This document shows, piece by piece, positions 2,984 to 28,367 of a stretch of 64,000 nucleotides of DNA. A model generated the notes under the pieces. The model had not been told where the DNA came from. It worked only from the letters and a program-made list of their open reading frames with translations, and searched no databases. This stretch comes from Halorubrum sp. PV6 (GTDB lineage Archaea > Halobacteriota > Halobacteria > Halobacteriales > Haloferacaceae): positions 1 through 64,000 of the forward strand of contig NZ_CP030065.1 of NCBI RefSeq assembly GCF_003990725.2. The letters are read 5' to 3'. The position numbers were made by a program, and so were the translations under genes. Position 1 is the stretch's first letter. Every line of letters starts with the position of its first letter.

Positions 2984-2996
2984 ACTCGAAACTTCT

Positions 2997-3121
2997 GCTC
3001 TGTTGAATAGCGGTGTTGACCGAGGAGGTCAAAATTTGAGTCGGTTTGTTAGCGGTTGACGCTAGTGGTCTCAAGATCGGCATCGTCTCACCATGGCTCA
3101 GAGGTCGCTATTCAACAGAGC
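2997..3121. mobile_element. MITE copy 3 (125 bp)
   Basis: Nearly identical to copy 1, with ends GCTCTGTTGAATAGCG and CGCTATTCAACAGAGC. The flanks CGAAACTTCT (2987-2996) and AGAGACTTCT (3122-3131) agree at 8 of 10 positions. It sits only 13 bp from copy 2 and supplies the last codons and stop of the minus-strand gene ending at 3098. Confidence 0.85.
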
Positions 3122-3928
3122 AGAGACTTCTTCTTCCTGGCTCGCTTCCCACTCTGGACGTGGTGTCGGAGATGGGAGTTCGTCAACCGCCGTTCGGAGT
3201 TCGTCTTCTGTCGTCCACGGGAAGCATCGATCGTGGAGTTCGAATTTACGGAATTTGTTGAGATGGACCCAACTGTACGTTGCCGGCTCTTCGTCCTCAT
3301 CTGCCCGCTCGTCGATCACATCCCACAACTCCTGTTCGTCGATGTCGAGACCGCTCTCTTGGGCGCGATCGGCGAGCGACTCGACGTTTGCTTGGACTTC
3401 ATCCGCCGACAGATCGTCTGTGAACGCTATCTCAAGGGCGGCCTGAATGACGTGCTGTGGCGAATCAAGGTTCTCGTCAGTCACCCACGCGTAATCACGT
3501 GGAAACACGTACGACTTATCAAAATACGGCGGGTCATCGATCTCGCCCAATTCAGGCGCCTCCCCACCACTCTCCTTCTCGAAGACCCCAACGATGTAGT
3601 CGCTGTACGTCGCGAGCAACGAAAACATGATATCGAACGTATTGAGGCGGTCAGTCGGAAGTTCGAGAAGGTCACCCATGATGAACGGATAGGCACCGAG
3701 CTGCTTCGTGAGTTCGTTCTGGACGGCGCGAAGCCGGCGGATATAGGGGTCGCGATAGCTCCCGAGGATGAAATACGATGTCCGTTGACTCCAGAGATAC
3801 GGCAATTCACGCTGGGTGAACCGCCAAATCTCCCGTTTCTCTGCAGGCTCAAGTTCGATGCCCCCGACGGCCTCGTGAACAACGGTCATAATCTCCCCAG
3901 CGTCCGGCGGCGGGCTTGGGTCGGTCAT
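3098..3928 (-). CDS. Hypothetical protein, C-terminus replaced by MITE
   Basis: A 276-residue acidic, mainly helical protein with no family I can name. The ATG at 3928 is preferred; a TTG five codons upstream would also be in frame. The last residues (SALLNSDL) are encoded by the terminal repeat of the MITE at 2997-3121, so the native C-terminus has been lost and the stop is provided by the element. It is divergent from the HTH gene at 4044 and shares with it an intergenic TTGGTT...AACCAA inverted repeat. It may once have formed a unit with the 107-residue gene at 2431-2754, from which it is now separated by two MITEs. Confidence 0.6.
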   Translation of the reverse strand: MTDPSPPPDAGEIMTVVHEAVGGIELEPAEKREIWRFTQRELPYLWSQRTSYFILGSYRDPYIRRLRAVQNELTKQLGAYPFIMGDLLELPTDRLNTFDIMFSLLATYSDYIVGVFEKESGGEAPELGEIDDPPYFDKSYVFPRDYAWVTDENLDSPQHVIQAALEIAFTDDLSADEVQANVESLADRAQESGLDIDEQELWDVIDERADEDEEPATYSWVHLNKFRKFELHDRCFPWTTEDELRTAVDELPSPTPRPEWEASQEEEVSALLNSDL

Positions 3929-9450: not shown

Positions 9451-9852
9451 TCACCCCTTGGAACCGCTCACGATGCGCGTCTTCGCGCTCTTCGAACTGC
9501 TCGACTTTCTACTGTGTCGTTGCTGACGCGCCCGATGTTCGAGAGCATCCGTTCTCGCCCGCTGGTGATGCTTGTGACTTGTCGGCGCCTTCAGCCTCCG
9601 GCTATTAATATAGAATCTGGGGGCTCTGTTGAAATCCCCTTCTTCAGATAGGTTCTTGCCTGAAACAACTGGTCGCTCTTCGACCTCTTCTTGATCTGCC
9701 GACTCCTTGAGACGGGACTCTCGTTCCTTGTGCTTGGCGAGCGCTTCAGCGTACGTCGCAACGTCTCGTAGCTGCTCCGGCTCCGACTCGTTGAGCGTGG
9801 TGACGATCTCTGTCGGGAGATTCGCTGGTGTGGTCGAGGGTTCGTAGGACAT
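9451..9852 (-). pseudogene. Broken paralogue of the 107-residue gene
   Basis: The first ~60 codons (MSYEPSTTPANLPTEIVTTL through EEVEERP) are nearly identical to the gene at 2431-2754, as is its promoter. After ERP the frame enters a mobile-element end (about 9622-9675) and then unrelated sequence, giving a chimeric tail (VVSGKNLSEEGDFNRAP...). The conserved C-terminal YYYWQW domain is lost. It is therefore a disrupted copy, though the chimera could still be translated to a stop at 9451. Confidence 0.65.
9622..9675 (+). repeat. Orphan left end of the TIR element family
   Basis: GGCTCTGTTGAAATCCCC followed by TTCTTCAGATAGGTTC and CCTGAAACAACTGGTCG matches the left-type end of the elements at 15110-15471 and 17505-18049. 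No matching right end is found nearby, so this is a solo end fused into the pseudogene at 9451-9852. Confidence 0.6.
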
Positions 9853-9863
9853 CAGCTACTCTC

Positions 9864-9908
9864 GTGTTAACCAACACGTCCTACGGGTCCGTAGTTTTGT
9901 TGGTTAAG
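9864..9908. promoter_or_regulatory. Operator copy with TTAACCAAC half-sites
   Basis: GTGTTAACCAACAC (9864-9877) and TTGTTGGTTAAG (about 9897-9908) repeat the arrangement and spacing at 2766-2810, upstream of the broken paralogue. Confidence 0.55.
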
Positions 9909-10012
9909 ACGATGGAGACGGCTCTCGCAATTGCTGGCTGTATCTCTGCTCGAAACTTCATTATAAAGGTAGTTACCCCATTACTAATCTCTCCGACAAC
10001 AGGTATTCAAAC

Positions 10013-10252
10013 ATGGTGGACCGCACTGGAAGATATACAATCGTCGACGAGTGCAACAACCACGGAACGGTCATGCTCCGTGAGTATCCACGCAACGAGA
10101 CGCTGTATGTCGTCGAGTACGACGACCCTGACGTAGAAGAGATGTTATCGTCGCTTGACGCCGGGACAGTCGTGGAAATCGACCTTCGACGTGCGGGCCG
10201 ACGAGGGAACGCGTGGTGTGCCGAATCCGTGCAGCCCGTGGAACTACTGTGA
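10013..10252 (+). CDS. Small hypothetical haloarchaeal protein
   Basis: A 79-residue acidic protein (MVDRTGRYTIVDECNNHGTV...) with alternating strands and the Asp/Glu-rich centre YDDPDVEEMLSSLDAGTVVEI. No signal peptide or membrane segment. It resembles small single-domain haloarchaeal proteins of unknown function; I cannot name a family with confidence. A TATA-like CATTATAAAGG lies about 55 bases upstream. It precedes the cation operon but is separated by 190 bases, so it is probably transcribed on its own. Confidence 0.6.
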   Translation: MVDRTGRYTIVDECNNHGTVMLREYPRNETLYVVEYDDPDVEEMLSSLDAGTVVEIDLRRAGRRGNAWCAESVQPVELL

Positions 10253-10445
10253 CACCGGCGTCACGTAGTCCCGCGGCCGACCAGACCCTTGTCCCGTTTT
10301 GAGTATCTAAAGACGAATGGGTGGCCGTTATCGACGACACACCGGAATCGGACGCTGGAGACTGACGCTAAGTTCTCCCTCCCACAAGCCAGAGTACAGG
10401 AGTGACCCCCGATATTAACCCAGTCGGTCATCTAGCCACACACAA

Positions 10446-10733
10446 ATGACACCTGTGAGACGGCTCGTGCTGGATCTGTTGAAGCCACACGATCCAGATG
10501 TTGTCACGTTTGCTGAATCGGTTGCCGACTGTGGGGGCGTCTCCGGCGTAAATATCGTCTTGGTGGAGACCGACAAAGAGGTTCAAAACGTGAAACTGAC
10601 TATCGAAGGTGACTCAATCCCGGTCGACCGTGTTCACGAGACGGTTGAGGACCTCGGCGGAACGGTCCATTCTATCGATGAAGTGGTCTGTGGGGATATT
10701 ATAGTCGAGGAGAGCGAAACGCCACAGGACTGA
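10446..10733 (+). CDS. DUF211 family protein
   Basis: A 95-residue protein matching the archaeal DUF211 pattern: MTPVRRLVLDLLKPHDPDVV at the start, the SGVNIVLVETDKEVQNVKLTIEG core and the HSIDEVVCGD end. DUF211 proteins are ferredoxin-like alpha/beta folds of unknown biochemical role, reported as possible metal (calcium) binders. It begins a probable four-gene operon (8 bases to the next gene, then two overlaps) with a VIT1-like protein, a P-type ATPase and a CaCA exchanger, which supports a link with divalent cations. Confidence 0.8.
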   Translation: MTPVRRLVLDLLKPHDPDVVTFAESVADCGGVSGVNIVLVETDKEVQNVKLTIEGDSIPVDRVHETVEDLGGTVHSIDEVVCGDIIVEESETPQD

Positions 10734-10741
10734 ACACGTTC

Positions 10742-11323
10742 ATGCTCTCCCGACTGAAACGCTTGCAGAGAGCGCTAACACGCGATGATGTCCGCTCCAT
10801 CTCGCGGCGATACTTCATCTCGAACGGGTTCGATGGCGCCCTCACCAGCGTCGGGGTCACTGTCGGCTCGTATCTCTCGGGCGTCCCCGACGGGCTGACC
10901 GTGTTCAAAATCGGCATCGGGGCAGCGATCGGGCTGGGCACATCTGGCGTCTGGAGCGTCTGGGAGATCGAGCGGGCGGAGAAGCGAGCCGAACTCATGC
11001 GCATCGAGCACGCGATGTTAACCGACCTCGACGAGACACGGATTCAGCGTCAGAAAGCCGGTGCTCGTCGGATAAACGCGTTGATGAGCGGTATCGGGCC
11101 AGTCATCGGCGTCGTACTCCCGATGATCCCATTCCTCTTCGAGGAACCGTTCCTCGGTATGCGCGACGCCACACTGGTTTCTATCAGCGTCGCAGTCGCC
11201 ATCCTCTTTCTATTCGGCGTGTACCTCGCCGATATCTCCGAGCAGAACTGGATCGTTGCCGGTGCCCGGATGGGCTTGGCGGGTATCGTCGTTGCGGTGC
11301 TAAACCTCATTCTCCCTGGATGA
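10742..11323 (+). CDS. VIT1/CCC1 superfamily membrane protein
   Basis: A 193-residue integral membrane protein. The N-terminal cytoplasmic stretch RRYFISNGFDGALTSVGVTVGSYL matches the start of the VIT1/CCC1 (TIGR00267-like) family. Hydrophobic segments lie at about residues 35-70 (two, Gly-rich), 112-130, 143-160 and 170-190, with an acidic loop (EIERAEKRAELMRIEHAML) between them. Family members move iron or manganese, but this archaeal branch has no assigned substrate. Its stop codon overlaps the start of the ATPase gene (ATGA), pointing to translational coupling. Confidence 0.75.
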   Translation: MLSRLKRLQRALTRDDVRSISRRYFISNGFDGALTSVGVTVGSYLSGVPDGLTVFKIGIGAAIGLGTSGVWSVWEIERAEKRAELMRIEHAMLTDLDETRIQRQKAGARRINALMSGIGPVIGVVLPMIPFLFEEPFLGMRDATLVSISVAVAILFLFGVYLADISEQNWIVAGARMGLAGIVVAVLNLILPG

Positions 11324-13971
11324 ATATGACTTGGCACAATCGCTCCACCGATGTCGTATTTGACGATGTAGATAGCGACGCTGATGGACTCTCGACCGAC
11401 GAGGCAGCGCGGCGGCTCGAAGAGGGTGGTGCTAACGAGATCACGAGTGAGGAAGGCCGGGACGCTCTCGAGGTGCTTGTCTCACAGTTTACCAGCGGGT
11501 TGGTGCTCGTCCTCATGGGCGCTGCGATACTCTCGATCACCGTCGGGCACGTCGTCGACGCCGTCCTCATCACGATCATCCTGCTCGCCAACGGCGTCTT
11601 CGGATTCGTTCAGGAGTACCGAGCCGAGCAGAGCCTCGAGGCACTTCGGAAACTAACCGCTCCAAGCGTGACAGTCTACCGCGACGGAACGCGCCAGGAG
11701 GTCGACATCATGGAAATCGTTCCAGGGGACGTGCTGGTGCTCGAACAGGGTGATGCTGTCCCGGCAGATAGCCGGATTGTGGAGTCGATAAGCCTGCAGA
11801 TCGACGAGGCTCCCCTGACCGGCGAGAGCGTTCCCGTCGAGAAATCCACAGAGGTACTCGACAGTGAGACGCCGCTGGCCGAACGCGAGAACATGGTCTA
11901 CCGGGGGACAACCGTCACTCGTGGCCGGGGCGAGGCGGTCGTCGTCGAGGCCGGCATGGCCACAGAGATGGGCACCATCGCGACCGAACTTGCGGCGGCC
12001 GAAACGCGCCAGACGCCCCTCCAGCGCGACCTGGATCGCCTCGGACGACGGATCGGCGTCGGCGTCCTCGTGCTCTCGGCCCTCGTCGTTCCTTTGTTGA
12101 TGCTTCGCGATACCGCCCTTCTGTCTGCGGCCCTGACGGCCATCTCGCTGGCGGTCGCCGCTATCCCGGAGGGATTGCCTGCAGTCGTCACGCTGACACT
12201 GGCGCTTGGCGTCCAGCAGATGGCTGACGAGAACGCCCTCGTCCGGACCCTCCCCGCGGTCGAGTCACTCGGCTCGGTGGAGGTCGTCTGCACCGACAAG
12301 ACTGGCACACTTACCGAGGGGAGGATGCACGTCGACCGCTTCTGGGTTCATGACGAGGTGATTGAAGACGGGTTCGATCCGGCAGACGACCGCGTGGGCA
12401 CCCTGCTCCGGATCGGAGCGCTGTGTAATGACGCCGATGATGAGCGAGGCGAACCGACCGAGCAGGCCTTGTGCCAGGCCGCTATTGAGGTCGGTATCGA
12501 CGTCGACGCACTCCGGAACGACACCCCCCGGAAAGACGAGGTTCCCTTCTCGTCGGACCGCAAGCGGATGGCCACAGTTCACACCGACCGTATCCGGGTG
12601 AAAGGTGCGCCCGAAGTCGTTCTAGAACGGTCGACGCGCGTCTTGACCGCCAGTGGCGTCGAGGATCTGGACGACACGACGCGCACACAGATCCGAGAAC
12701 AGGTCGAGACGTTCGCCGACGACGCGCTGCGCGTCCTCGGGTTCGCTTTCAAGCCGACTGACGACGGTGGCGATCCCGAAGAGAACCTGGTGTTTGTCGG
12801 CCTCCAAGGACTCATCGACCCGGCCCGGACCGAGGTCGCAGACGCCATTGCGGAGACCCACGCCGCGGGTATCGACGTGAAGATGATTACAGGCGACAAT
12901 CGTCACACAGCGCGGGCCATCGGACGCGATATCGGCATCGAGTCCGACGTCCTGACTGGCCCGGAGCTGGACGCAATGGACGACGCCGAGTTACGCGACT
13001 GCGTCGAAGAGGTGGACATCTACGCCCGGGCGACACCGAGTCACAAGGTGCGTATCCTGCGCGCGCTCCAAGACGACGGGCGGACGGTCGCGATGACGGG
13101 CGACGGTGTCAACGACGCACCCGCACTCAAGAATGCCGACGTCGGTATCGCCATGGGCGTCCGGGGGGCAGATGTCGCCAAGCAGGCGAGCGACATCATC
13201 CTCCTTGACGACAACTACGCGACCATCAAGAACGCAATCCGGCGTGGACGGACCATCTTCGACAATATCTGGAAATTCGTCGCCTACCTTCTATCGGCCA
13301 ACCTCGCAGAGGTACTACTCGTGTTCGTCGCGTCCCTCTTTGGCTACCTCATCCTCCCCGCCGTCCAGTTACTCTGGATCAACCTGCTGACGGACGGCCT
13401 CCCAGCACTCGCACTCGGTGCCGACTCCGCGTCCGACGACGTGATGCGCCGAGAACCCCGCGAGTCCACCGGCGGCATCATCGATCGACCGATGGCCACG
13501 CTTATCGGTGGCGTCGGTCTGACAACTACCGTCGTTCTCCTCGGCGTGATGTTTCTCACGCTCGACGGCGCATCGACAGTGACGCCGTACGTCATGTCGA
13601 TGGTGTTCACGGGGTTCGTCGTCTTCGAGTTCGCCAAACTGTACGTGGTTCGCTGGTCCCGGGGAACGTCGCCGCTGACGAACCGCTGGCTGGCGGGGGC
13701 CGTCCTCGCGTCGTTCGTGTTGCATCTGTCAGTGCTGTACACGCCCCTGAATCAGTACTTCGGGACGGTCCCACTGGGCATCGGCGACTGGGGGCGTCTC
13801 CTAACGGCGCTCGCAGTCGCCTTCCCAGGATTCCTCGGAACTGCGTGGTACGTCCGGCAGTCGACTCGTGAACACTGGAGCACCCCGGACCGAGACGGCG
13901 ACGGGTCACTCGGTCGGGAGGGTGACGAACAGTCGAAACGGGTATCGGAGGAGGAGCTCGATGCTCGTTGA
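11320..13971 (+). CDS. P2-type cation-transporting ATPase
   Basis: An 883-residue P-type ATPase. Visible signatures: actuator motif LTGES, phosphorylation motif DKTGTLTEG with D326, the M4 motif [18 protein letters not shown] typical of type-II calcium/manganese pumps, nucleotide-site KGAPE, TGDN and hinge [13 protein letters not shown]. About ten membrane segments are predicted: two pairs before the phosphorylation domain and six after. The PEGL motif and M5-M6 region ([28 protein letters not shown]) favour Ca2+ or Mn2+ export over heavy metals. Start ATGAATATG overlaps the previous stop; its own end overlaps the exchanger start by 11 bases. Confidence 0.9.
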
Positions 13972-14899
13972 ACTCGGCCTGTTCGTCCTCGGCCTCGCGC
14001 TTCTCGTGTTCGGGGCAGATCGCGCCGTGACGTCGGCCGGTGACCTCGCGCTCTACTACGGCGTCTCGCCCTTCTTTATCGGCGTGACGCTCATCTCGGT
14101 CGGCACCTCTGTCCCGGAGATGGTTACGTCGGTCTACGCGGCCTACTACGGTGCCGGTGATCTCGTGGTGGGAAACATCGTCGGGTCGGAGACCGCACAG
14201 ATCACGCTCGCCATCGCCGTGGTCGCGTTCATCGCGCCATTCGTCGTTGAGCGGCGCAACGTCCTCGTCTACGGCAGCGCAATGATTCTGGCGATGATCA
14301 TCATGCTCCTCACGCTCGACGACGGCGTCATCGGTCGGTCAGAAGGGTTTCTGATGATGCTTGCCTACGTCCAGTTCATCCACACGCTCTATACGAACGA
14401 GGGCGGTGAGGAGATCGCCGAGGAAGTCATCGAGAAGGTCACGACACCGCGCGCTGAACTCCCGTGGATCATCGGCGGGCTGACGCTCGTCGTCGTGGGA
14501 GGCCAGCTCATGGTCACGAACGGCGTCGCGCTCGCGCGCCTAGCGGGCATTCCGGAGTACTTGATTGGTCTGCTCACCGGCCTCGGGACGACCCTGCCGG
14601 AGATCGTCGTGGCCGGCATCGCCGCCCACGAGGGCCGAAGCGGCATCTCCGTCGGCTCGATCCTCGGCAGCAACATCACCGACCCCGTCTTCTCGCTGGG
14701 TATCGGTGCGCTGTTTTTCGACGTGACCATTCAGGACGTCGCCGCCCTCCAAGGCTCACTCGTCTACATGCTCGTTGCGTCCGTGCTCGTGTTGGCTCTG
14801 TTCTACTGGCGGGAAGGGATCGATCGCCGGGCAGCTATCGTCTGCCTGCTCCTGTACCTCCCGACATTCGTCGTTATAAATATACCGGCGAGTCTGTAA
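13961..14899 (+). CDS. CaCA family Na+/Ca2+ exchanger
   Basis: A 312-residue membrane antiporter with the two inverted alpha repeats of the CaCA family: alpha-1 SVGTSVPEMVTSVYAAYYG followed by GNIVGSETAQ, and alpha-2 GLGTTLPEIVVAGIAAHEG followed by GSILGSNITDP. These place the ion-coordinating Glu and Asn/Thr residues. About ten hydrophobic helices. The ATG at 13961 is chosen because it begins the conserved first helix ([20 protein letters not shown]); it overlaps the ATPase gene. Together with the pump it would keep cytoplasmic calcium low, one using ATP and the other the Na+ gradient. Confidence 0.9.
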   Translation: MLVELGLFVLGLALLVFGADRAVTSAGDLALYYGVSPFFIGVTLISVGTSVPEMVTSVYAAYYGAGDLVVGNIVGSETAQITLAIAVVAFIAPFVVERRNVLVYGSAMILAMIIMLLTLDDGVIGRSEGFLMMLAYVQFIHTLYTNEGGEEIAEEVIEKVTTPRAELPWIIGGLTLVVVGGQLMVTNGVALARLAGIPEYLIGLLTGLGTTLPEIVVAGIAAHEGRSGISVGSILGSNITDPVFSLGIGALFFDVTIQDVAALQGSLVYMLVASVLVLALFYWREGIDRRAAIVCLLLYLPTFVVINIPASL

Positions 14900-15109
14900 T
14901 TAAATCTGATAGGTGCTATTAACTCGAGGGAAACGCTGCTATCCCTGAAGAACGTGAAACAAGATATTGGGCGCAAGAGACCGATAAGGATTCCGTGCCA
15001 TCGGGCACGTTCTGTTGACTGGGCCATGTGCGAAAAAAGTCGATCCATGGGCGCTACAGCCTGGATGCCGCGCTCCGCGGCATCCGGGAAAGCCCGAATA
15101 GGTGAATCT
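14900..15109. other. Gene-free spacer with stem-loop
   Basis: No gene is supported. A perfect 10-bp stem GGATGCCGCG/CGCGGCATCC with a 3-base loop lies at 15063-15085, about 165 bases after the exchanger stop; it has no T-run after it. Confidence 0.4.
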
Positions 15110-15471
15110 GGGTCTGTTGAAATCCTCAGCAAGTGATATATTCTGACCCAGCTGCGATTAATACAGACGGTGGACTTACTGTCTCCTAACGTCCCCTGAT
15201 AGTACATGAGCGGGGAAAGCAAGACAGGACCGAGCGGGAAAGACACGGGAATAGGGATGGCGATTGGACTTGCGATTGGGGTCGCTATCGGTTCTGCTAC
15301 AAATAATATCGGACTGTGGCTCGCTATCGGAGTGGCAATTGGTGCTGCAATTGGTGTCGGACTGAGTAATCGGGAATAGAACTGTATAATTCTTGATTGC
15401 GGAGTAGGCAGATCTACTGACCAGCTGTTTCACACGAGAACCTGTCTGAAGAAGAGGATTTCAACAGAGCC
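15110..15471. mobile_element. Cargo-bearing mini-element A (362 bp)
   Basis: Begins GGGTCTGTTGAAATCCTC and ends GAGGATTTCAACAGAGCC, i.e. inverted repeats with one mismatch in 18. It is flanked by a perfect 8-bp direct repeat GTGAATCT (15102-15109 and 15472-15479). Beyond the short inverted repeat the two ends differ, and each matches one end of element B (17505-18049). The only gene inside encodes a 57-residue membrane protein; there is no transposase. An 8-bp duplication and a GGCTCTGTTG end are compatible with IS6 or IS1595 type transposases, but the mobilising enzyme is not identified. Confidence 0.85.
15206..15379 (+). CDS. Glycine-zipper mini membrane protein
   Basis: A 57-residue protein: a polar N-terminus (MSGESKTGPSGKDTG) then two hydrophobic stretches with regular small-residue spacing (GMAIGLAIGVAIG and WLAIGVAIGAAIGVG) joined by SATNNIGL. 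This is a glycine-zipper hairpin in the membrane; similar short proteins exist widely and their functions are poorly known. It lies wholly inside mobile element A and is its only gene. The Gly/Ala/Ile periodicity supports real coding. Small glycine-zipper proteins may form channels or bind membranes, but nothing here decides. Confidence 0.65.
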   Translation: MSGESKTGPSGKDTGIGMAIGLAIGVAIGSATNNIGLWLAIGVAIGAAIGVGLSNRE

Positions 15472-15561
15472 GTGAATCTCTACTTCACGTGCTGGCCTCC
15501 CGAGTCACACGAACGCCTCTCCAAACGATGATGACCACTGGCCGGGCAGACAGACGAGGGA

Positions 15562-15592
15562 GCTGAGGGCCGCCAAACCGGCGGCCCTCAGC
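15562..15592. repeat. Perfect 13-bp GC-rich hairpin
   Basis: GCTGAGGGCCGCC (15562-15574), loop AAACC, and its exact complement (15580-15592). A T-rich run (CCTTTCTTTAG) follows 17 bases later. It could be a terminator, a processed RNA structure or an element end; no gene flanks it closely. The rest of 15480-15797 holds no supported gene. Confidence 0.55.
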
Positions 15593-15754
15593 GGTCGGTC
15601 GGAGCCTTTCTTTAGCATCTGCTATCGCTAGACAGCGACCGCACCGCACACACGTTTCGACCGCCTACTGGCTGTGAAACGAACAGATCCCCGGACGGCG
15701 AAATCATTTTGCCGCTAAACGTGGTTTGGTCCGCTAGCAGCGTTTCAATAGGTG

Positions 15755-15811
15755 AAATCCTCTTCTTCAGACAGATTTTACCTGAAACAGTCGGTCGATG
15801 AGAGCTACGTA
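15755..15811 (+). repeat. Solo left-type end of the element A/B family
   Basis: GAAATCCTCTTCTTCAGACAG followed by TTTTACCTGAAACAGTCGGTCGATGAGAG (in two parts) matches the left end of element B, including the inner CGGTCGATGAGAG. The outermost GGCTCTGTT is missing, replaced by TTTCAATAGGT. Confidence 0.55.
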
Positions 15812-15856
15812 CAGATCGCTAACCCGAGGGATAGCCTATATCGAATTATATCAACC

Positions 15857-15997
15857 AGCCTTGTTTAGACGCTCCCGACGGCTGCGGTTAGTTGCTCTCT
15901 TGGATGAACTGAATCACTCCAAAAGTAGCTCTCTACCCGATCTCGTTCGTGGGATAGCGACTGTAGAACACGAACTGCACCGCGTCTAAACAAAGCC
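15857..15997. mobile_element. MITE-like element with GTTTAGACGC ends
   Basis: AGCCTTGTTTAGACGC (15857-15872) and GCGTCTAAACAAAGCC (15982-15997) are inverted repeats matching at 14 of 16 positions around 109 bp. No clear target duplication. A short open frame crosses it but looks incidental. Just outside, 16003-16018 matches (inverted) a sequence near 28230, probably the end of another decayed insertion sequence. Confidence 0.55.
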
Positions 15998-16148
15998 CAC
16001 CCTCTGTATTCAGCACGGCTCCCAGAACAGATTACTAATTGAGAATTTCAATGGAGCCCAATTGCTCTATTTCAATTATCCGGTCCACAGCTATATGTAG
16101 GTAGGAAATGAACTTTCACGATAACATCGGAGAGGCGTTATAACCACA

Positions 16149-17012
16149 ATGACACACCGCATCTGCACAGCTGACGCGGCAGAGGGAGTGGCATACTTTC
16201 AACGCCTCTCGCGGACGTTGTTTTCTCCAGGTACCGATCCAAGTACGAGACTCGAGCAACTGTTTGCGAGTGAGACCGACGAGTTCGGGTTGGAGTACGG
16301 TTTTCTGTCGAGTATCGATGTCAAGAACGGAACAGAGCGCTTTGAGATCGTACATAGTTCCCACGAGATGGTACAACAGAACACCACCATCCCACTTTCA
16401 CAAACATACTGCCGGAAAACGATCACAGACCCGGAGGGGACGATGGCGGTCAGTAATGCCAGTACTGAAGGGTGGGAAGGAGACCCAGCGTACGAGACCT
16501 TTGGTTTGGGAAGTTACCTCGGAACGACGATCATCGTCGACGGCGAGCTCTACGGAACGCTCTGTTATGCGAACACCGCCCCACGCGATCAACCACTCAC
16601 CGGCGAGGAAAAAGCACTTATCGAACTCCAAGGGCAGGCAGTAGAGTATATTTTGACCCTCTGGCACGATCGTCCCGACCAGGAGGAGGGATTCGACGCT
16701 ATCGAACAACGGGTCGCATTCTCTGACGCCATCGATTCGATGATGGAAGCACTCACGAGTCCCGAAAGGCGTACGGTGCTTGCGGCCCTCTTGGAGGAAC
16801 CTACGGGGGTTAGCATCGCCACGCTCGAAGAGCAACTGGACGACGAGACCGCCACCCTCCGTCTGTATCACGTCACGCTCCCCACACTGACAGATGCCGG
16901 CTACATCGACTGGGACGACGATGTCGGTGTCGTGTTTGAGGGACCGAATTTTTCGGAAATACGGCCTCTCGTTGAATTGCTGAAGGAGTACAATATGACC
17001 TTCGTCACCTGA
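16149..17012 (+). CDS. GAF domain-helix-turn-helix regulator
   Basis: A 287-residue soluble regulator. Residues ~20-165 are a GAF domain (YGFLSSIDVKNGTERFEIVH, then the typical LYGTLCYANTAPRD end), homologous in pattern to the GAF domain of the kinase at 5098. Residues ~185-285 are a winged helix of the haloarchaeal DUF7344-like kind (SDAIDSMMEALTSPERRTVL, then VSIATLEEQL and LYHVTLPTLTDAGYIDWD). Such one-component proteins sense light, redox or small ligands and act on transcription; ligand and targets are unknown. It is monocistronic, between mobile-element debris. Confidence 0.82.
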   Translation: MTHRICTADAAEGVAYFQRLSRTLFSPGTDPSTRLEQLFASETDEFGLEYGFLSSIDVKNGTERFEIVHSSHEMVQQNTTIPLSQTYCRKTITDPEGTMAVSNASTEGWEGDPAYETFGLGSYLGTTIIVDGELYGTLCYANTAPRDQPLTGEEKALIELQGQAVEYILTLWHDRPDQEEGFDAIEQRVAFSDAIDSMMEALTSPERRTVLAALLEEPTGVSIATLEEQLDDETATLRLYHVTLPTLTDAGYIDWDDDVGVVFEGPNFSEIRPLVELLKEYNMTFVT

Positions 17013-17167
17013 TCGCCGCCGCGGAAGCCATACTCTTCTACGGGTAAGATCAGAAGACGAGTCAGCCCGTGCCGACTGAGAGTCATACTGTAGCATCACC
17101 CGCCTTGTATCGATACTCAATCCTCAATCGACCCAGAATCCAAACAGAGTAGGGACTCGATTTTTTA

Positions 17168-17350
17168 GTGTTCTACGACGACGCGTTCGGAGAGGAACTT
17201 ACCGAGCTGTGGAACCGAAACCGAACGAAGACCTATTACAGACTCGGTATCGCAACGAAGGAACAGGCTGAGGCAATGTACCGGCTCGCCGACGATATCC
17301 ACCGCCACCTCATCGAGATGACACGGATGTCACACGAGTGTATCTGTTGA
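17168..17350 (+). CDS. Short hypothetical protein, possible remnant
   Basis: Sixty residues from a GTG start (MFYDDAFGEELTELWNRNRTKTYYRLGIATKEQAEAMYRLADDI in part), helical and charged, with three His in DIHRHLIEMTRMSHECIC. Internal composition looks coding, but no ribosome-binding site or TATA box is convincing and the gene may be a fragment. Family not recognised. The 155 bases before it and after it hold nothing supported. Confidence 0.35.
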   Translation: MFYDDAFGEELTELWNRNRTKTYYRLGIATKEQAEAMYRLADDIHRHLIEMTRMSHECIC

Positions 17351-17504
17351 GGCTGACCGGTAAGATGCGTTTCCTGGGTCGCGGGCTACAATCAGGACGA
17401 ATGTCTTCGGGATCAAGAACCGTGTCGGCCGCAAATTCGACGAACTGTTCCAGTAGGAGCTGCCGTGGCTTCTGTTGTGCCTGATGAAAATATTCTGAAT
17501 AATC

Positions 17505-18049
17505 GGCTCTGTTGAAATCCTATTCTTCAGCCATATTCTCACCTGAAACATCCGGTCGATGAGAGTTGCTTCGAATGCCGTAATTTAAGACATTTGGATG
17601 AAACGAACTCAACATGCCCTCCCCAAAGCGTGGTTATATTGCAGCGGCGTTGGTGCTGATTGGCATAGGTGGATTTGCGTATTCGGTGGTCCTGATCGGT
17701 CAGGTCTTAATTGGGGCGGGGTTCACGCTTTCAGCGCTTGTTGTCGCGGCACTGGTGTACTACGGCGATGCTGAACGTCACACGCTCACTCGCGCTAAGG
17801 TCGCTGTCACAGTTGTCTATGGCGTTTTTACGGGCCAGCTGCCGGTGGCTGTCATCGCTGCCTGTGTTGTCTACCTCTCTGCGTGGCTCACGGGAACTGA
17901 CAGCCCGCTCAACTCACCTGACACAGAGATATTCCCGGTTACACAAACGACTACCGATGAGTCGGAATACACTGATTGACAGCCTTGGTCTCTTGTATTG
18001 ACCGCGACTGCGTCGAAATATGTCACTTTCTGAGTATTTCAACAGAGCC
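17505..18049. mobile_element. Cargo-bearing mini-element B (545 bp)
   Basis: Starts GGCTCTGTTGAAATCC and ends ATTTCAACAGAGCC (14-bp perfect inverted repeat), flanked by a perfect 8-bp duplication GAATAATC (17497-17504 and 18050-18057). Its left end (TTCTTCAG...CCTGAAACA..CGGTCGATGAGAG) is homologous to the right end of element A read inward, and its right end (CTCAGAAAGTGACATATTTC read inward) to A's left end, so the two are the same family in opposite orientation. It carries only a 121-residue membrane-protein gene. Confidence 0.88.
17614..17979 (+). CDS. Small multi-pass membrane protein (element cargo)
   Basis: A 121-residue protein with three to four hydrophobic helices (about residues 8-28, 27-48 and 63-92) and a polar, Thr/Asp-rich C-terminal tail ([20 protein letters not shown]). 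No family recognised. A TATA-like TAATTTAA at 17581-17588 lies about 29 bases before the ATG, as expected for a leaderless haloarchaeal transcript, so the gene has its own promoter within the mobile element. It is not similar in sequence to the cargo of element A, although both are small membrane proteins. Confidence 0.65.
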
Positions 18050-18061
18050 GAATAATCATAT

Positions 18062-18900
<839 letters not shown>

Positions 18901-18904
18901 GATG

Positions 18905-19084
18905 TCAACGCCACATAGCCAGAGAGACGTAGGCACCCTGCTTTGCGGTCACCCACTCCGTGGTTCGTTTTCCGCGGTCGGGATGCGCCGGATGCAGAGT
19001 ACACTCGTCCGGTCGGTCGTTGTATCGCGCGACCGTCGCTTTGATGGCTTCTCTGGAACTGTCAAAATCCTCGCTCACTCTCAT
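18905..19084 (-). CDS. DUF7511-like small haloarchaeal protein
   Basis: A 59-residue protein ([20 protein letters not shown] through [13 protein letters not shown]). The pattern [18 protein letters not shown] ... [15 protein letters not shown] is the one I associate with the short haloarchaeal proteins of DUF7511 type, whose function is unknown. The stop codon lies exactly at the right boundary of the TnpB element, so insertion either preserved or slightly altered the C-terminus. The ATG is the first of the frame after an in-frame stop. Confidence 0.6.
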
Positions 19085-19586: not shown

Positions 19587-20276
19587 GTGTTCAGATAAGG
19601 ACTGAAAGGTGAGGCGGTGCGTTTTCAAAGTAATCTGTGCCCGAAAACGCCCGACTCGGCGGCCGTTTAGACAAAATCAACTTAGACTTTGTGGAGCGAG
19701 AGGCAACACCGAAACTGCTGGTGAAGCTCAGTATTCAGCTTCATTTGGTTGTATCATCGCTTTCGAATACTGTTTTGTTTCTTGAGGTATTCGGTGTTAA
19801 TCGAGTTCAATCTCCCGTTCACAACTGGGTTCACAAGGCCGATCTACAGCCGGAGTCCGGTCGAAGCCCGAATCACGTTGCGGTCGATGAGACGGTAATT
19901 CGACTTGACAATGAACAGTATTGGCTGTACACTGCTGTTGATCCAGAAACGAATGATCTGCTTCATACACAGCTTGAAACGACAAGAAACAATGCTGTCG
20001 CAGATCGGCTTTTTGCAGATCTCCGCGAGAAACACGACGTAGATGACGCGATCATTCTCGTCGATGGCGCAGCTCCACTTCGGCGAGTCTGTAGAAAACA
20101 CGATCTCGATTTTAGATACCAACGACATGGAAATCTGAACCGCGTCAAACATATCATTTTTTAACGTAAAATACAAAACTATCTATTTCTCAAACTGTTT
20201 TAGCAACGCTGAAGCAGAACAGCAAACGAGTGGCTGCGCTCGTTCGCATTCGCATGGAATCAGCCTATTTGAACAC
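19587..20276 (+). mobile_element. Degenerate IS6-family element
   Basis: Ends GTGTTCAGATAAG (19587) and CCTATTTGAACAC (20276), close to the intact copy at 59055-59744 over the whole length. The transposase frame opens at 19637 (MPENARLGGRLDKINL, HNWVHKADLQPESGRSP, VAVDETVIRL, ILVDGAAPLRRVC) but breaks near 20150 at LNRVKHIIF, so the catalytic Glu region is displaced out of frame and the gene is inactive. No target duplication is seen. Confidence 0.85.
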
Positions 20277-28039: not shown

Positions 28040-28367
28040 ACTCACACCAAAGATTGGCATCCAACTCCTATTAAAACCTTCTGTGGAACAGACAGTCTGA
28101 CCCAATTGAATTTCATCTAATTCTCGGTCTCAAACCGTCAGTGGCGGTCTACTGGTGCCTATTTCGCCCAGCCATTTTTATTGGCGAACTTTGGCTCTGT
28201 TGAAACTCTCAATCGATTGTATGCTCTCGGAACCGTGCTGAATACAGCGCGCGAGTCGCTGAAGTCACTCTCTCACTGAGCGGTCTGCCCGCTCGTGGCT
28301 TGGCATACACCTGTTCGCCCACGTTAAGATTCAGCCCGGTCCACCCCAACCTGAAGTTTTATCCTTC
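28040..28367. other. Intergenic region with mobile-element end
   Basis: No gene. GGCTCTGTTGAAACTCTC at 28194-28211 followed by CCGTGCTGAATACAGCGCG (28230-28248) resembles a terminal repeat of the GGCTCTGTTGAAA type and matches a fragment at about 16003-16018 in inverse orientation. A TATA-like GTTTTATCC lies just before the gene at 28368. Confidence 0.45.

Follow-up and report, generated by a model that had tools for sequence, protein, structure and literature searches.

Two cassettes of Halorubrum sp. PV6 as probable transposase-less members of a haloarchaeal IS5-family group with one exchangeable cargo slot

The first 64,000 nucleotides of contig NZ_CP030065.1 of Halorubrum sp. PV6 (the window; this contig, C2, is 300,774 bp long, and the other contig of the genome, C1, 2.74 Mb) contain two short cassettes, A and B, which are very probably transposase-less members of a haloarchaeal group of IS5-family insertion sequences (IS) resembling ISHla2 and ISHxa2, having one exchangeable cargo slot and being mobilised in trans. 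As judged from sequence comparison, relatives have a full-length transposase gene between ends of this kind, the edges of the slot are fixed, unrelated cargo is found beside transposase genes that are 90-96% identical, and the cargo is biased towards membrane proteins. The parts of A and B, each of which has one end of type L, one end of type R and a cargo open reading frame (ORF), are as follows (window positions).

15102-15109, no strand: left copy of the target duplication of A, GTGAATCT; single copy in the empty site
15110-15471, reverse strand: cassette A, 362 bp, without transposase gene, R end left and L end right; tips, exact 8-bp duplication, empty site
15110-15167, forward strand: R end of A, 58 bp; R model match 15110-15167, E 6.7e-16
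15206-15379, forward strand: cargo ORF of A, 57 aa, glycine-zipper-like membrane protein
15400-15471, reverse strand: L end of A, ~72 bp; L model match 15415-15471, E 7.9e-18, length from the identity profile
15472-15479, no strand: right copy of the target duplication of A, GTGAATCT
17497-17504, no strand: left copy of the target duplication of B, GAATAATC; single copy in the empty site
17505-18049, forward strand: cassette B, 545 bp, without transposase gene, L end left and R end right; tips, exact 8-bp duplication, empty site
17505-17576, forward strand: L end of B, ~72 bp; L model match 17505-17563, E 2.7e-18, length from the identity profile
17614-17979, forward strand: cargo ORF of B, 121 aa, three predicted transmembrane (TM) segments
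17992-18049, reverse strand: R end of B, 58 bp; R model match 17991-18049, E 2.3e-14
18050-18057, no strand: right copy of the target duplication of B, GAATAATC

An earlier, sequence-only reading of this DNA had claimed that A and B share a 14-bp inverted tip and two differing subterminal ends. The tip (GGCTCTGTTGAAAT) was seen in both cassettes by reading of the sequence and by a repeat search, and both end types were likewise present. With at most one mismatch the tip is found at 48 genomic positions (24 on each strand), as against none for a control in which its letters were read backwards, and it is therefore not a product of chance. The boundaries of both cassettes were proven by empty sites in other Halorubrum plasmids. 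For A, the joined flanks with one 8-bp copy aligned gap-free to the Halorubrum ezzemoulense plasmid NZ_CP034942 (80/88 identical); for B, they aligned gap-free to NZ_CP054586 of Halorubrum sp. CBA1229 (79/86 identical), and Halorubrum salinarum NZ_CP053942 was likewise without B (81/93 identical; its 4 gap positions lie at a distance from the joint). These alignments indicate that A and B are precise insertions with an exact 8-bp duplication.

DNA searches with A and B revealed many further L and R ends in the same genome. When 29 tip-to-tip intervals were examined, five had an exact 8-bp duplication, two matched at 7/8 bases and 22 at 5/8 or fewer. Apart from A and B, exact duplications flank C2:111704-112032, which holds a 52-aa membrane ORF, C2:156985-157743, which holds a HicA toxin gene and an adjoining DUF7387 gene, and C1:1671682-1674706, a 3,025-bp unit with matching outer GATCACCC that encloses two small elements of a related end type. 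The 1.7 kb between these inner elements, whose own flanks mismatch, contains a rhomboid gene and another membrane gene. The intervals with 7/8 duplications, C1:1334048-1335284 and C1:1712060-1712833, encode a 298-aa membrane protein and a 164-aa protein, respectively, and a second copy of A (C2:282343-282699, 93% identity, without duplication) is among the 22. This second, related type of end (L2/R2, with CCTTAGGAACTGATAGGA and CTCAATTAGTGATATGTTCTTGGAGCCGTGCTGAATACAG as examples) has cargoes of its own, at C1:1671682-1674706 and elsewhere.

The transposase of the family was reached through L and R profiles built from the ends of this genome, which led to a fetched region (L098) in which a 273-aa transposase adjoins an R-like end. 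Its relatives lie in elements ordered R3 tip, 52 bp, transposase, variable stretch and L tip, and the transposase-bearing elements L181 (AGATATGT), L178 (GATTTTCT), L180 (GGAACAGT) and L195 (GAAATAGT), delimited by their R3 and L tips, have exact duplications. The protein carries a DDE_Tnp_1 domain (PF01609, E 3.4e-18), which is found here together with 14-bp terminal inverted tips and a short target duplication, as in members of the IS5 family; many plasmid records annotate IS5, and PLSDB plasmid records name ISHla2 (93.8% identical to the query transposase) and ISHxa2 (96.0%). The ends are judged from these features to belong to an ISHla2/ISHxa2-like IS5-family group, and not to IS6. The transposase is present across haloarchaeal genera (best 80 of 240 loci), and uninterrupted cognate genes exist in relatives. 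Transposase-bearing loci comprised these best 80 of 240 and regions chosen among the matches listed in the profile and transposase searches; transposase-less loci were found with the end models of the PV6 genome and came mostly from Halorubrum. More distant IS5-type genes of strain PV6 have related tips, such as GGCTGTGTTGAATC.

A census of L ends over 97 relatives, performed with the L profile at a threshold of E <=1e-3, gave matches in 71 of them. The 52 genomes of the genus Halorubrum contained 996 L ends, with at least one in 51 genomes and none in genome G041, and the ends were sparse outside the genus (43 in 20 of 45 other genomes). A search of viral contigs for an exact 23-letter L-end pattern gave no match, a single pattern being a weak test. 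The fetched stretches yielded 97 distinct tip-to-tip elements with at least 7/8 duplicated bases, 80 of which had an exact 8-bp duplication. An L end was paired with R or R3 in 58, at least one end was unscored in 33, four were L/L and two R/R3; pairing of L with R is thus a rule with exceptions. Transposase homology was found in 39 of the 97 (38 relatives at >=77% and one cousin at 42%), where L277 and L238 were counted as transposase-bearing though holding broken or doubled transposase pieces. The end types of these 39 were L/R3 in 22, R3 with an unscored end in 11, L/L in three, R/R3 in two and unscored in one.

In the complete form of the element, an R tip with a 52-bp leader is followed by the transposase gene (~273 codons), the motif CGGTCAATACAG, the cargo and an L end of ~72 bp. 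The transposase stop codon is followed by TGAGCGGTCAATACAGG or a variant of it, and as the R end of transposase-less cassettes terminates in the same CGGTCAATACAG, it is the transposase gene that distinguishes the two forms; the shorter form joins the outer R sequence to CGGTCAATACAG, so that in effect just the transposase gene is missing. Mean column identity falls on the L side from 0.69 at positions 61-70 to 0.34 at positions 81-90, a drop ~70-80 bp from the tip (51 ends), and on the R side from 0.76 at positions 51-60 to 0.41 at positions 71-80, a drop ~60-70 bp from the tip (24 ends); in transposase-bearing elements identity drops 20-30 bp past the transposase (30 elements). Such drops on both sides imply that the cargo slot has fixed edges. 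Across the 61 distinct cargo representatives defined below, median element length was 489 bp (302-1279) without transposase and 1524 bp (1160-2134) with it. A tblastn search with the transposase over 31 distinct transposase-less elements, A and B included, gave one match (E 0.97). The sequence-only reading was to fall if the ends belonged to one IS and the centres were decayed pieces of its transposase; the first part applies, the ends being those of a single IS5-family group, whereas the centres do not consist of pieces of transposase.

Cargo was counted in elements with at least 7/8 duplication, of which 24 were set aside because of end type or slot length. The remaining 73 usable slots, grouped by DNA similarity, represent 61 distinct cargoes (31 transposase-less, 30 transposase-bearing) on one backbone, in agreement with the earlier proposal of conserved asymmetric ends around variable centres. 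With TM ORFs scored by a hydropathy threshold (at least one hydrophobic 19-mer in the ORF) and no trained predictor, such an ORF was present in 44 of the 61 slots, as against a mean of 8.0 (maximum 14) after shuffles keeping each slot's dinucleotides and 10.8 (maximum 17) in flanking DNA, 40 rounds each. At least two TM segments were scored in 34/61 slots, compared with 0.3 and 3.6, respectively. The earlier interpretation of the cassettes is on the whole supported. Among transposase-bearing elements, 24 of the 30 distinct cargoes have a TM ORF, and three more of the 61 slots contain a lipobox-like signal.

Family scans were carried out on 35 of the 44 membrane picks, nine doubtful-looking ones being omitted. 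Five Pfam families were matched by one member each, DUF5518 alone strongly (9e-20), four matches to NCBIfam and two to PADLOC (best E 0.004) were weak, and most of these cargoes match no family. The prediction that many small membrane or defence-like genes would be found between the same ends with 8-bp duplications thus held for membrane genes but not for defence, one HicA cassette notwithstanding. The cargo protein of A gave a weak match to Gly-zipper_Omp (E 5e-4, below Pfam's cut-off). Named cargoes include a trypsin-like protease (Trypsin_2) in L107, which has an exact duplication, and a cold-shock domain protein, DUF1059 and SHOCT in tip pairs of the PV6 genome without duplication. The ratio of non-synonymous to synonymous substitution rates (dN/dS) was 0.34 for the cargo of A against its second copy (from six changes), 0.28 for the cargo of B against its cassette homologue in L168 and 0.25 for a pair of 90-aa genes, indicating that all three pairs tested are under purifying selection.

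Cargo turnover was examined in the 35 elements with a full-length transposase. Their transposase genes form 37 pairs that are at least 90% identical in DNA (90-96%), none of which shares cargo by DNA or protein; one of these pairs (L268/L266) is uninformative, because the slot of L266 is occupied by another IS. Among the full set of 595 pairs, five share something, which is an upper figure because some of these matches are the transposase itself in wrongly oriented slots (L215, L257). Homologues of the gene in B were found in 15 of the 52 genus genomes: three, its own copy included, lie in intact cassettes, each with a different exact duplication; one (L336) lies in what is left of a cassette, both tips being lost; two (L342, L346) share their surroundings and are without ends; and nine others have no clear end. 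In the protein tree L336 clusters with two cassettes and the copy of strain PV6 stands apart, a pattern that would fit either repeated capture or loss of ends. The 90-aa gene, present in 11/52 genus genomes, is located in strain PV6 between R and L ends without transposase (C1:1686754-1687217, no duplication) and in Halorubrum trapanicum within a transposase-bearing element, so that the same cargo occurs in two formats.

We propose that a transposase made elsewhere in the cell would bind the L and R ends and move the cassettes in trans. New cargo may be captured when neighbouring elements move as a single unit bounded by their outermost ends, with inner DNA lost afterwards, and would be kept for a benefit to host or element, most often at the cell membrane. 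Capture by outermost ends is favoured because C1:1671682-1674706 is flanked as a unit by GATCACCC, because two L/L elements with exact duplications (L192 and L216) contain an R3 end around which they seem to have moved as L/L units, and because in L300 two elements are placed back to back with the same 8 bp between them. It was also considered that the slot might be a dedicated exchange site, at which cargo is actively swapped at the fixed R-side motif CGGTCAATACAG and its L-side counterpart CGGTCGATGAGAGCTGC; this is rather doubtful, as is, to the same degree, its corollary that the transposons constitute an archaeal gene-cassette system that keeps sampling small envelope proteins across haloarchaea.

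Three other explanations were weighed against mobilisation in trans by the cognate IS5-type transposase. The tip of A and B presumably resembles those of IS6/IS26, the duplication is 8 bp long and IS6-family genes lie near by, all of which could suggest that an IS6-family transposase moves the ends; the genome has 12 IS6-family matches (six above the cut-off and without stops), and an IS6 gene lies within one of the tip pairs, C2:286789-287714. However, the IS6 copies whose flanks were read are ~700 bp long with tips of their own (~GGCGATGTTAAGTTAAGG or GGCAGTGTTCAGATAAGG), two copies sit inside a cassette or its tip, and an IS5-type transposase lies between tips of the cassette type in 38 duplication-flanked elements. 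IS6 is scarcely credible on these grounds, and for the copies seen it was ruled out as mobiliser by their different tips and the IS5-type transposase between the ends. IS1595, also considered as mobiliser, was dropped after that transposase had been found. Ordinary IS decay, in which the transposase was lost, random host DNA was taken up, the passengers are functionless and the membrane bias arises from short AT-rich sequence, would account for the many solo or decayed ends (32 of 79 partnerless, see below) and for slots that are non-coding, such as the G037 group. It is nevertheless distinctly unlikely, as the dinucleotide-keeping shuffles fall far short of 44 membrane-ORF slots, dN/dS is low in the three pairs computed, and transposase-bearing elements carry such cargo too.

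The third explanation, that the cargo serves the transposon or plasmid and not the host (as toxins, surface or entry exclusion factors, or transposition regulators), is possible, though not probable. It would suit the HicA and DUF7387 genes of the exact-duplication cassette, the lack of any family match for most membrane cargoes and a passenger gene of a transposon in H. lacusprofundi that was proposed to hinder virus attachment (PMC10544981). Against it stand the two weak PADLOC matches among 35 cargoes, the host-like appearance of the trypsin-like protease, rhomboid, cold-shock domain protein and DUF1059, and, in two genomes whose flanks are shared (L342/L346), relatives of the gene of B that have no ends beside them.

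Several observations weigh against the preferred reading of A and B as trans-mobilised members of the IS5-family group. An unselected sample of five complete genomes gave 115 L matches, from which the 79 better-scoring ones (E <=1e-8) were fetched; a convergent tip with duplication (>=7) was found for 29 of these, whereas 18 had an R-type partner without duplication and 32 were partnerless within 2.7 kb, so that many ends are remnants. Four of the 29 partners have low R-end scores (7.5 or less) and might be ends of another kind or chance matches. When the letters of the right flank were shuffled (20 trials), 0 or 1 of the 79 passed per trial. The one-L-one-R rule is broken by the four L/L elements (three with exact duplications) and the two R/R3 elements (both exact) among the 97; as the L/L exceptions concern the pairing rule and not the family, confidence in the reading was unchanged. 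The only close transposase copy in the PV6 genome (C2:70259-71077, 95%) has one in-frame TAG, and the cassettes may therefore be immobile in this genome today. Neither a TM ORF nor a lipobox was present in 14 of the 61 slots, some ORFs having been cut by slot trimming, and one shared cargo is non-coding, being found in eight elements, seven of them in genome G037, where some copies are inverted with respect to L and R. Lastly, TATA-like letters were seen in just 13/51 L and 14/24 R ends, too weak a signal for the claim of inward promoters in both ends, which was rejected.

The window contains three further ends or elements of these types.

9622-9675, forward strand: solo L end; L model match, no partner end found
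15745-16058, forward strand: probable decayed cassette, 314 bp; L end 15745-15804 (tip lost) facing a decayed R-like end at 16058
28193-28252, forward strand: R-like end, second (related) end type; no partner tip within the window

Solo L ends had been claimed at 9622 and 15755. The first does look solo, since the DNA from 9669 onwards has a 92% relative at 2571-2700 and no partner end was found, but the second is probably part of the decayed cassette, around which no target duplication was seen. Inside the latter lies a 139-bp unit with inverted ends CTTGTTTAGACGC (15858-15996), and a closely similar unit follows the element ending at C2:287714. Another unit of 127 bp (2996-3122) has the tip TGCTCTGTTGAATAGCG at both ends and flanks with a 7/8 duplication (GAAACTTC/GAGACTTC), and resembles a miniature inverted-repeat transposable element (MITE) of a cousin IS5 group; its tip recurs at several other places in the fetched stretches. 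The C-terminal part of a TnpB-like (IS605/IS1341) gene lies downstream of B (18303-18929), and a broken IS6-family element, one of several ~700-bp copies in the genome, lies at 19637-20263 with three stops across the transposase match. Elsewhere on C2, IS6-family elements are nested in a cassette tip (C2:217922-218513, L084) and in a cassette interior (C2:287026-287595, L086). The non-coding cargo of genome G037 (L309, L314, L316, L318, L321, L327, L329) is GC-rich, ~450-520 bp long and has several TATA-like boxes, and could be a small RNA unit; an RNA role was not upheld by an Rfam search over L309, L098 and L321, which gave one sub-threshold match, outside the element.

If this interpretation is correct, many small orphan membrane-protein genes in haloarchaea would be passengers of one transposon group that move between species. 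This would offer a specific path by which envelope genes could spread, cassettes with defined ends that can be tested, and a natural experiment on which small proteins merit carrying. As a caution, annotation may list short ORFs close to such ends as hypothetical genes and miss the mobile unit around them. What a specialist would find surprising is how large the family is, that its slot is fixed and that its cargo leans towards membrane proteins. A literature search found no publication on ISHla2 or ISHxa2, nor a description of the exchangeable slot, the membrane bias or the scale of the family; an earlier description is possible.

In integron gene cassettes, interchangeable small cargo genes are carried in a constant frame; the units described here, by contrast, are transposable elements, each having two ends and a duplication of 8 bp. 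The transposase family is that of ISHla2/ISHxa2, and the ISHla2 copy read (L187) has the R3 leader; however, its L-side end is diverged, and the records annotate a transposase and neighbouring hypothetical or RDD-family genes, with no cassette or cargo slot. Mobile insertion cassettes (MICs) have IS ends without a transposase gene and with other genes inside, and are movable by the transposase of a related IS. A and B likewise have both IS ends without a transposase gene, an unrelated gene inside and insertion as a unit with target duplication, and their mobilisation by a related IS would correspond. They differ from MICs in belonging to the archaeal IS5 family, in the 31 distinct transposase-less cargoes on one backbone, in the strong bias towards small membrane proteins and in the number of L ends within one genus. 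MIC is an established term, as for MIC231 of Bacillus cereus (PMC6542083 and PMC3129680), and so is transporter IS (tIS) for IS copies with passenger genes (PMC3129680 and PMC7986276). According to PMC3119063, four of five MITE families of Haloquadratum are non-coding and shorter than 500 bp, with one ISH2-type exception, HqIRS32, of ~520 bp with an ORF; these share with A and B the absence of a transposase and ends in common with a transposon, whereas the centres here vary between elements and are mostly coding (61 distinct centres among 73, 44 with a TM ORF), not short, uniform and non-coding. As in a tIS, the transposase-bearing relatives, although not A and B, hold a transposase and an unrelated passenger gene between IS ends. 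The kind of element is thus already known from MICs and tISs; the variant, in which passengers differ among copies with 90-96% identical transposase genes and the slot edges are fixed, is new as far as can be told.

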